DNA of 64,000 nt from Rosistilla ulvae (GTDB taxonomy: Bacteria; Planctomycetota; Planctomycetia; Pirellulales; Pirellulaceae), in contig NZ_CP036261.1 of the NCBI RefSeq assembly GCF_007741475.1, positions 2,790,001 through 2,854,000 of the forward strand, written 5' to 3'. Shown here piece after piece: positions 24,978 to 27,458 of the stretch. Each line of letters begins with the position of its first letter. Within the stretch, counting starts at the first letter, position 1. The position numbers and the translations under genes were made by a program. The notes below the pieces were generated by a model, which saw only the letters and a list, made by a program, of their open reading frames with translations, did not search any database and was not told where the DNA came from.

Positions 24978-25646
24978 TTAGGCAGCGCGATAGAGGATCG
25001 CGTTGCCTCGCTTGCCGCAGGTGTCGACGGCACCGGTCTGCCGCAAGCAGTAAGCGATTTGTTGCGCGGTTCCACGTGGGCAGGCGATATGACCGGCGAG
25101 CTCGGCGGTGTCGAAGGGATGGGGCAGGTGGTCGCTGCCGATCAGGTTCAGCAAGTCCTTGGTCGTGCGGAACTCATGTGTCGATTCGATGCTCTCCAGC
25201 ACGTAGTCCTTCGTTTTGTAGTCTTTGCCGCAACGTCGTCGCTTGCGGCGATCCGGCGGCAGACGCCAGTGCTGGACGTTGACCATCGGGACCTCGATGG
25301 TAAGCCGTGGGTGGGGGAAGACCCGGGTGAAATAAATAAGTTCGTCGAAGATCTCTAACAGCGCCCCGCGTTTGGGACTCAGTCGACGTCCCAAAACCGG
25401 CCCCTCTGCAGTCGCCTGCCGGACGATCCGCCGGCGGTTGATGATCGGTTTGACGATGCGAACGTCGTGGCGCTGCAGCAGCGATTGGATCTTCGGACGG
25501 ATCGCGCTGAGCGAGGCGAACTGGATTTCGATCAGTTCATCGCCGCGGATCGCGTCGATGCGGTAGTCTCCCAACCGCACCTCGGTATCCGCTTCCGACG
25601 CGGCATACATTCCCTTGAGCGATCGGTGCAGCGATGTCTCCATCAT
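24978..25646 (-). CDS. Conserved unknown, possible PD-(D/E)XK nuclease-like protein
   Basis: This 222-residue protein was not assigned to a named family. Its N-terminus shows EVRLGDYRIDAIRGDELIEIQ (split here: D31 in YRIDAI, and E40-x-Q42 in LIEIQ), followed by the helix SLSAIRPKIQSLLQRH and the strand VRIVKPI. This spacing resembles the D...ExK/Q core of restriction-endonuclease-like folds. A basic stretch (RRKRRRCGKDYK) follows. The C-terminus looks like a winged helix (FDTAELAGHIACPRGTAQQIAYCLRQTGAV). ATG 25646 follows AAGGA. I have the impression of a family conserved across planctomycetes, but cannot prove it here. A DNA-binding or cleaving role is inference. The repeat array begins 33 bases upstream of its start. 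Confidence 0.72.
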   Translation of the reverse strand: MMETSLHRSLKGMYAASEADTEVRLGDYRIDAIRGDELIEIQFASLSAIRPKIQSLLQRHDVRIVKPIINRRRIVRQATAEGPVLGRRLSPKRGALLEIFDELIYFTRVFPHPRLTIEVPMVNVQHWRLPPDRRKRRRCGKDYKTKDYVLESIESTHEFRTTKDLLNLIGSDHLPHPFDTAELAGHIACPRGTAQQIAYCLRQTGAVDTCGKRGNAILYRAA

Positions 25647-25679
25647 TCCATCCTTGGATTGAGTCTTGCGACCATTGCC

Positions 25680-26632
25680 AGCACGAAGCGCAAGCGAGTG
25701 GAACCTAGGTGGTTCAGACGCTCACTCGCTTGCGCTTCGTGCTAGTAATGAATGATCGGTCTTGTTGCGATCGGGGGTGATGCCCGATTGCACTTTTGTG
25801 GGGCGGTCGCCTTTCGCGTAGCGAGTGCGACCATATACCAGCACGAAGCGCAAGCGAGTGGAACCTTGGTTGTTCAGTTGATCACTCGCTTGCGCTTCGT
25901 GCTAGTAATGAATGATCGGTCTTGTTGCGATCGGGGGTGATGCCCGATTGCACTTTTGTGGGGAGGTCGCCTTTCGCGTAGCGAGTGCGACCATTACCAG
26001 CACGAAGCGCAAGCGAGTGGAACCTTGGTGGTTCAGTTGATCACTCGCTTGCGCTTCGTGCTAGTAATGAATGATCGGTCTTGTTGCGAGCAGGCGTGAT
26101 GCCCGATTGCACTTTTGTGGGGAGGTCGCCTTTCGCGTAGCGAGTGCGACCATATACCAGCACGAAGCGCAAGCGAGTGGAACTTTGGTTGTTCAGTTGA
26201 TCACTCGCTTGCGCTTCGTGCTAGTAAAGAATGATCGGTCTTGTTGCGATCGGGGGGGGGATGCCCGATTGCACTTTTGTGGGGAGGTCGCCTTTCGCGT
26301 AGCGAGTGCGACCATATACCAGCACGAAGCGCAAGCGAGTGGAACCTAGGTGGTTCAGTTGATCACTCGCTTGCGCTTCGTGCTAGTAATGAATGATCGG
26401 TCTTGTCGCGATCGGGGGGGGGTGCCCGATTGCACTTTTGCGGGGAGGTCGCCTTTCGCTTGCGCTTCGTGCTGGTAATGAATGATCGGTCTTGTTGCGA
26501 TAGGGCGTGATACCCGATTGCACTTTTGTGGAGAGGTCGCCTTTCGCTTAGCGAGTGCGACCATATACCAGCACGAAGCGCAAGCGAGTGGAATCTTGGT
26601 GGTTCAGACGCCACTCGCTTGCGCTTCGTGCT
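25680..26632. repeat. Tandem array of long inverted repeats (REP/BIME-like), about 160-bp unit
   Basis: Six complete stem-loops lie at 25680-25743, 25840-25903, 25999-26062, 26159-26222, 26321-26384 and 26570-26632. Each has a 21-nt arm starting AGCACGAAGCGCAAG and its exact complement ending GCTTCGTGCT, separated by 21-22 nt. The arms are identical in all six copies. The linkers (about 96 nt) are also repeated and hold two smaller hairpins: ATCGGG / CCCGAT, and GGTCGC / GCGACC around CGC-GTA-GCG. The unit spacing is 159-162 bp. A seventh unit near 26456 keeps only the right arm. Short open frames across it repeat the same peptide and are not genes. No transposase lies in the window. It resembles intergenic repeats of Pirellulaceae, here in tandem. 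Confidence 0.93.
26456..26473. repeat. Truncated stem-loop unit in the array (right arm only)
   Basis: At this junction the conserved GGTCGCCTTTCGC of the linker runs directly into the right arm TTGCGCTTCGTGCT. The end of the linker, the left arm and the loop are missing. The join falls on the shared bases TTCGC/TCGC, as expected for a deletion between short homologies. Confidence 0.75.
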
Positions 26633-26670
26633 AGTACCCAAGGGTGCTAGGAATCTTCTGAGCTAGCAAC

Positions 26671-26721: not shown

Positions 26722-27285
26722 TTATTCTGGTTCGATACCGAAGTCGCGAATCGTCAGCAGAGTTTCCAATTTCAATCCACGCTCGGCAAACTTGGCTTCG
26801 CCACCCGCCAATCGATCGATGATCCCCAGCACGCCAAGGACTTTCAAACCGAAGGCTTCGGCGGCGTCGACGGCCTGCAGCGCGCTGCCTCCGCTGGTGA
26901 TCACATCCTCGACGATATAGACGCTTTGTCCGGCGGCAACCGGCCCTTCCACCTGACGCCCGGCGCCATGCCCTTTCGGTTCCTTGCGGACCATAAAACC
27001 ACGCAGCGGCAGACCTTGTTGTCCGGCCAGCGTGACGATCGACGCGGTGATCGGATCGGCACCGATTGCCATTCCGCCAACCGCCGAGATCTGGTTCACG
27101 CGATCGCCGAGCATCGCCAGCATGCCTGCAGCGATCTGATTGGCACCCTGAGGATGCAGCGTGATTTGCCGGCAATCGAGGTAATAAGAGGCGGTTTTTC
27201 CGCTGGCCAGCGTGAAAGTTCCGGTTTGCAGAGCAAATTCGCTGACGAGTGCTTTGAGGGCTTCGCGGTCGTAATCGGCTGACAT
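26722..27285 (-). CDS. pyrE: Orotate phosphoribosyltransferase
   Basis: PyrE transfers the phosphoribosyl group of PRPP to orotate, giving OMP in pyrimidine synthesis. The 187-residue product shows FTLASGKTASYYLDCRQ at the N-terminus, the GMAIGADPITASI segment, and the PRPP-binding motif VYIVEDVITSGGSALQAV. The length fits the short bacterial form. The start is the ATG at 27285 (MSADYDREALKAL); the frame is open further upstream but without family-like sequence. No good Shine-Dalgarno is seen, which is common in planctomycetes. No other pyr gene is adjacent. Confidence 0.94.
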   Translation of the reverse strand: MSADYDREALKALVSEFALQTGTFTLASGKTASYYLDCRQITLHPQGANQIAAGMLAMLGDRVNQISAVGGMAIGADPITASIVTLAGQQGLPLRGFMVRKEPKGHGAGRQVEGPVAAGQSVYIVEDVITSGGSALQAVDAAEAFGLKVLGVLGIIDRLAGGEAKFAERGLKLETLLTIRDFGIEPE

Positions 27286-27458
27286 GGGCACCGTTCTGAA
27301 AGATGAAAGGGGAATCGAATGTGGAGGCAACGACTTGGCAGCTTAATGCCAATCGCGAGCCGGTACCACGCCAAATCGCTGCCCGAACTGATTTGACCAA
27401 CGATTCCCGCCAAAAATGTGCAGGCGACGCCGTCGCCTGCAGTGGGGGAAGGGGGAAG

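Follow-up and report, generated by a model that had tools for sequence, protein, structure and literature searches.

The hairpin array beside pyrE

Within a 64,000-nucleotide stretch of the Rosistilla ulvae genome (the window), a tandem array of long hairpins occupies positions 25680 to 26632, between pyrE and a gene encoding a 222-aa protein. Each hairpin is built from two inverted copies of a 21-nt arm, AGCACGAAGCGCAAGCGAGTG and its complement, which enclose a loop of 21-22 nt. The block is very probably a tandem cluster of REPINs, hairpins formed by doublets of repetitive extragenic palindromic (REP) sequences, in which each arm is the REP of a class-3 TnpA-Y1 transposase and each hairpin a REPIN that the enzyme would have mobilised before the unit was amplified in place.

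Unit 1 lies at 25680-25743, with arms at 25680-25700 and 25723-25743 on either side of a 22-nt loop. Units 2 to 5 follow at 25840-25903, 25999-26062, 26159-26222 and 26321-26384 (arm starts 25840/25883, 25999/26042, 26159/26202 and 26321/26364), and unit 6 at 26570-26632 (arm starts 26570/26612). The coordinates of the six pairs bear out the claim of an earlier note, made from the sequence, that six copies share exactly identical 21-nt arms. The 159-162 bp pitch that it gave holds for units 1 to 5, whose start-to-start steps are 160, 159, 160 and 162 bp, and fails for unit 6, where the step is 249 bp because a half-unit without a left arm intervenes: a lone right arm on the minus strand at 26453-26473, with 2 mismatches, whose left arm and loop are deleted. 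Tandem Repeats Finder reports a 160-bp period with 4.9 copies and 95% matches over 25667-26459. The window holds 13 arm matches at no more than 3 mismatches, and none occurred in 100 dinucleotide shuffles of it.

Folding of unit 1 is very stable, both as RNA (-50.7 kcal/mol, z -8.7) and as DNA (-32.4, z -9.0); an Rfam scan of the window returned nothing at gathering scores. The first homologous linker, 25744-25839, contains two smaller hairpins. A linker hairpin of the form GGTCGC..GCGACC, at 25805-25832 on the plus strand, recurs at 25965, 26124, 26286, 26447 and 26535, the copy at 26447 being shortened by the half-unit deletion; it bears only a loose likeness to REP2, a second repeat of the R. 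ulvae genome (8 of 27 positions mismatched). REP2 and a third repeat, REP3, were traced up to the genes beside them. Two 92-aa open frames, at 26071-26349 and 26363-26641, cross the repeats, apparently arising by chance from the arm sequences, and might get annotated as small proteins.

The array sits 3' of pyrE (26722-27330, minus strand), whose product, orotate phosphoribosyltransferase, matches TIGR00336 at 128 bits (cut-off 107), confirming this neighbour as first named, and 33 nt before the start codon of the co-directional 222-aa protein gene (24978-25646, minus strand). The latter had been called nuclease-like, a name that finds no support, as Pfam and NCBIfam searches of the protein found nothing at E 0.001.

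A dispersed repeat family and its class-3 TnpA gene

The R. ulvae genome (G000) is complete in a single contig of 7,475,804 b, and a search of it with the 21-nt arm, as the earlier note had proposed, returned 98 exact copies and 160 at no more than 3 mismatches, against 0 for the control. All 98 exact arms fall within the stretches of genome that were examined. Arms with up to 2 mismatches form 36 clusters that adjoin unrelated genes, and a single cluster lies inside an open reading frame of at least 200 aa, whereas random placements over these stretches fall inside one in 56% of cases, position being scored against such frames rather than annotated genes. The description of these repeats as scattered singly proved incomplete, for measurements in this genome cover five more tandem arrays of 3-6 units, whose pitches are about 117, 122, 128, 164 and 348 bp. 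The arm had no match in viral contigs, nor the array in plasmids and phages by blastn, so a vehicle for its spread was not found.

Pfam Y1_Tnp matches seven places in the genome, six of them above the cut-off. One of the genes (G000:C1:3022166-3022663, minus strand; Y1_Tnp 29.1 bits, cut-off 23) is bracketed by the arms of the array. This gene, tnpA (locus L035, 1465-1971, minus strand), encodes 168 aa from the first TTG within an open frame of 183 aa. Its stop codon, TAG, falls within the CTAG of the downstream REP, and the nearest upstream arm, with 1 mismatch, lies 84 nt from the TTG start. The motifs NHVH, FWT and YVREAQ fit the class-3 row in Table 1 of PMC6006769 (NHVH, W[TA] and Y----Q; this and the other papers are cited from the available parts of their text), the assignment being made by motifs and not by a class-3 profile. 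The H, W and Y are kept in an alignment of 27 TnpA relatives, and a profile of these relatives weakly matches transposases of known structure of the IS200/IS605 type, including ISDra2-like ones (best E 0.0035). Genes flanking tnpA encode DUF1553 and DUF1501 proteins, and no second class-3 gene was found in the genome. A RAYT-type (REP-associated tyrosine transposase) gene, which the earlier note had advised looking for, is thus present and flanked by the array's own repeat, which lends good support to the note's suggestion that the array is the target of a REP-associated transposase whose gene lies elsewhere. The family therefore has the features by which REPINs are recognised: inverted near-identical arms, a short variable spacer, many extragenic copies, and a cognate RAYT gene flanked by REPs. 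A further mark of a REPIN would be its mobilisation by the RAYT.

Other Y1_Tnp genes of R. ulvae have repeats of their own. At L037 (G000:C1:1900809-1904027), a second REPtron-like place, a Y1_Tnp-like gene scoring 22.5 bits, below the cut-off, has on either side a tandem array of a different repeat, with a pitch of about 132 bp and with four units in one array and five or more in the other. Short inverted repeats, each gene with its own, also accompany five more Y1_Tnp genes (L031-L034 and L036); they lie to both sides of four of these genes and, within the searched stretch, on one side only at L033.

Of 54 loci of TnpA relatives (L088-L117 and L152-L175), 53 were tested for an inverted repeat across the gene, a 19-aa fragment at L111 being excluded, and 8 were cut by contig ends. 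At 37 of the 45 complete loci an inverted repeat between the 350-bp flanks scores at least 16, and the maximum of 20 plain shuffles per locus is 13. The flanking repeats are mostly of one design: an AG or AA foot, 3 outer pairs, a 2x1 internal loop, an inner stem, and a 4-nt loop that is mostly GNNA. The R. ulvae arm fits this class-3 REP model: AG as foot, 3 base pairs in the outer stem and 2-4 in the inner one, a 2x1 internal loop, and a terminal loop of the GNNA type. The C-A mismatch found consistently at the base of each hairpin might have marked the strand, an idea abandoned because C-G or T-A takes its place at other loci.

One arm was parsed from each of 38 of the 45 loci, including three that score below 16; the seven left aside comprise four with no usable repeat and three others. 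Pairing over the 32 distinct REPs is 0.856. It falls to 0.621 on exchange of 3' halves with a refitted parse, and to 0.729 when the exchange is confined to a stem-length class (0 of 1000 in both cases); the set includes a few poorly parsed rows (e.g. L112 and L109), and these statistics ignore relatedness. Protein distance and REP distance are correlated over 23 loci (Mantel r 0.47, 0 of 5000 permutations). The four nucleotides before the inner stem are ACGA in R. ulvae and CCGA in many relatives; PMC6006769 gives a 5' foot of CnGA. The GTAG/GTGG foot canonical for class 2 was not encountered as the rule: feet are CTAG, CCAG and similar, and GTAG occurs in 1 of the 32 unique REPs.

Relatives with and without the enzyme

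The exact arm is present in 10 of 60 relatives, R. ulvae included, among them other genera and a member of another family (G047) with 32 copies, and a looser arm pattern occurs in 52 of 241 genomes of the family. A relative of the class-3 protein is found at E 1e-10 in 97 of these 241. Where the best tnpA scores at least 170 bits the arm is present in 13 of 14 genomes, compared with 39 of the remaining 227 (p 7e-9), and five or more arms are present in 11 of the 14 versus 14 of the 227. The 170-bit line was set after the list had been seen; at 166 bits the arm is in 13 of 17 genomes (p 7e-7). For any class-3 tnpA the association with the arm over the 241 genomes has p 0.006, and it is strong only in the close clade.

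Two congeners, G001 and G002, allow the array locus to be compared directly: identity to R. ulvae is 96% (G001) and 95% (G002) for pyrE, and 90% and 94%, respectively, for the 222-aa protein beside it. At this locus G001 has one inverted arm pair, with 1 and 3 mismatches, whereas in G002 a single exact arm is accompanied by another repeat in inverted pair, so that the sixfold array is seen only in the R. ulvae genome. The array looks like a local expansion from one unit, which is the simplest reading; the alternative is loss in the congeners.

The class-3 tnpA gave no hit in either congener. Exact and near copies of the arm number 1 and 32 in G001, 85 and 155 in G002, and 98 and 160 in R. ulvae; the G001 counts fit decay of the REPs after tnpA was lost. 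At the place corresponding to tnpA, only mismatched arms remain in the stretch of G001 that was examined. G002 has there (L184, 2556-3296) a 246-aa open reading frame with similarity to REP_Tyr_transpos at 50 bits (cut-off 80), no Pfam match, and another repeat, GGTCGCCTTTCGCTCCGCGAAAGTGCG, at both ends (positions 2558, 3371 and 3489). This second repeat also lies near many arms in the R. ulvae genome, and none of the seven Y1_Tnp genes examined there carries it. In G012, which belongs to another genus, the best DUF1553 relative (64%) likewise precedes a class-3 tnpA, and the gene on its other side is a different one.

These comparisons allow a broader, tentative proposal, which we consider somewhat less probable than its failure. 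Class-3 TnpA and its REP hairpin may co-diversify across Pirellulales, and the site beside the DUF1553 gene may be a seat taken in turn by different REP systems: the class-3 one in R. ulvae and G012, an unrelated REP_Tyr_transpos-like one in G002, and decayed REPs in G001. REPs would then decay where the enzyme has been longest gone, and the arm identity of the array would reflect recent enzyme-driven turnover.

Origin of the array and competing explanations

The proposed sequence of events begins with the class-3 TnpA-Y1, an HUH enzyme with one tyrosine, which would bind the REP hairpin in single-stranded DNA, cut beside the foot, and then move or copy the REPIN. One REPIN would have settled downstream of pyrE before the congeners split. 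The unit and its flanking DNA would then have been amplified in tandem in the R. ulvae lineage, by unequal recombination or slippage, and the arms kept up either as enzyme substrate or through homogenising recombination. Single-strand recognition and movement by TnpA are established for IS200/IS605 elements and for the REPs of E. coli, and are carried over here by analogy. The sequences themselves display the repeat family, its connection with the class-3 gene, the single-copy state of the congener locus and the lower variation of the arms; movement by the enzyme and the order of events are the proposed part.

Several observations weigh against this account. Among the 60 relatives a tnpA hit of any strength is at best weakly associated with the exact arm, occurring in 5 of the 10 arm-bearing genomes and in 19 of the 50 others, and among the genomes with at least five arms a close tnpA is missing in 14 of 25, including the complete genome of G002 (103 arms by the looser pattern). 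The G002 counts do not fit decay after loss, unless the loss was recent; with both congeners lacking the class-3 gene and so many of the G002 arms still exact, upkeep of the arms by the enzyme stays an inference. In G012 and G102, whose tnpA is the closest (65%), there are just 10 near arms apiece, none more than about 8 kb from that gene; in the complete G012 genome all ten surround the class-3 tnpA, in a span at G012:C1:6879630-6887430. The REP system of G012 either never spread or shrank back. The inverted-repeat mark is missing at 8 of the 45 complete loci. Finally, a single R. ulvae arm is a weak hairpin as DNA (z +0.6 and +0.75), and the whole REPIN is very stable; the single-arm model thus rests on the family of hairpins and not on energy.

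The rival that survives best, though we regard it as unlikely, holds that the array is a small satellite whose arms are identical merely through youth or homogenising recombination, without selection on the arms or upkeep by a transposase. The linkers are indeed also highly alike (95% matches). A loop ending in GACGC is common to units 1 and 6 and TTGAT to units 2 to 5, which suits exchange among the inner units and is expected from inner homogenisation. Against a satellite stands the distribution of variable columns. In the window array these are 0 of 42 in the arms, 14 of 97 in the linkers (six linkers or linker pieces) and 7 of 22 in the loops (arm versus linker p 0.006), so the linkers and loops do vary by substitution, as had been claimed. 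Pooled over six arrays of the genome they are 8 of 252, 91 of 637 (p 4e-7) and 50 of 153, respectively; such p values are a guide, since the columns of tandem copies are non-independent. That arms are kept as linkers drift is therefore upheld in the window and in the pool, and not in every array: single-array p values are 0.0008, 0.04 and 0.006 in three and 0.058, 0.31 and 1 in the other three, and in array L042 the linkers are the less variable part, a point that favours the satellite and counts against the enzyme. Conservation of the arms in related strains, which the earlier note had named as a possible refutation, gave a mixed answer, in view of the mismatches in the G001 pair. The satellite explanation also sits poorly with the exact arm at dispersed loci with unrelated surroundings, in other genera and in another family of the order. 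The lower drift of the arms may reflect either an enzyme substrate or homogenisation by recombination.

A second rival, which we consider improbable, is that the array serves its neighbours, ending transcription after pyrE or shielding the 3' end of the pyrE mRNA, and that selection keeps the stems for this purpose. Its position, directly behind pyrE and ahead of a co-directional gene, and the very stable RNA fold of each REPIN would suit such a role, and REPs elsewhere are reported in roles of this kind in the text of PMC6006769. The same arm is present, however, at 36 clusters beside unrelated genes, and with just one decayed REPIN in one congener and one arm in the other, this locus has no need of a sixfold array. 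We infer that it has no function specific to pyrE.

Binding of a nucleoid protein or DNA gyrase, as at the bacterial interspersed mosaic elements (BIMEs) of enteric bacteria, seems more improbable still: the array has the general resemblance of two inverted REPs in tandem (PMC6006769, in part), and a site of general housekeeping use would hardly be spread so patchily, the arm being present in 52 of 241 family genomes. An assembly artefact turning one REPIN into six would be in keeping with the one REPIN or one arm at the congener locus, and is scarcely credible given that the units differ by substitutions and indels, one being partly deleted, and that the genome is one contig.

The array is itself an ordinary form of a known element, of the same kind as the tandem REPIN clusters of Pseudomonas fluorescens SBW25, where REPINs also cluster beside RAYT genes (PMC3116915, Bertels and Rainey 2011). 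In the available text of that paper the largest reported cluster has four REPINs and one REP, compared with six and a half in R. ulvae, and the SBW25 RAYT and REP belong to a different class and phylum from the R. ulvae pair. The BIMEs and REPtrons of E. coli share with R. ulvae inverted REPs, tandem copies and one tnpA flanked by its REPs, but have a GTAG foot and a class-2 TnpA, the foot being lacking in R. ulvae (PMC8266576 and PMC6006769, both in part). What is available of PMC8049555 treats REPINs as duplicated by the RAYT, and PMC8266576 describes, for other classes, TnpA-REP groups that co-evolve with their REPs. IS200/IS605 elements likewise have a Y1 HUH transposase bracketed by hairpins. 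R. ulvae differs from them in its single class-3 gene, in hairpins dispersed in many copies, and in that no accessory gene was seen; with one class-3 gene, it does not show the multicopy mobile unit with its gene that defines such insertion sequences.

The closest likeness is to the class-3 TnpA-Y1 genes themselves, which the same partial text of PMC6006769 places mainly in Planctomycetes, Acidobacteria and Proteobacteria, with weak, atypical flanking hairpins that can be abundant (about 600 in Solibacter), as the many genomic copies are in R. ulvae. The foot may differ, CnGA being given for the 5' side there, and in R. ulvae AG adjoins the outer stem and ACGA precedes the inner one; membership is larger, the few proteins listed there comparing with the 97 family genomes found here. 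No paper describing the R. ulvae repeat was found in an open-licence library under Rhodopirellula, Pirellula, Pirellulaceae or Planctomycetes, supplements aside.

What is added here is the class-3 enzyme-REP pair with a model of its REP, together with the comparison of congeners and an array of greater length. As far as its available text goes, PMC6006769 left class-3 TnpA as a small family whose origin and behaviour were undetermined. The loci described here supply a concrete candidate enzyme-substrate pair, a REP model backed by covariation, close relatives that have or lack the gene, and an enlarged array, and thus open REPIN mobilisation and REP decay to experiment in a planctomycete.
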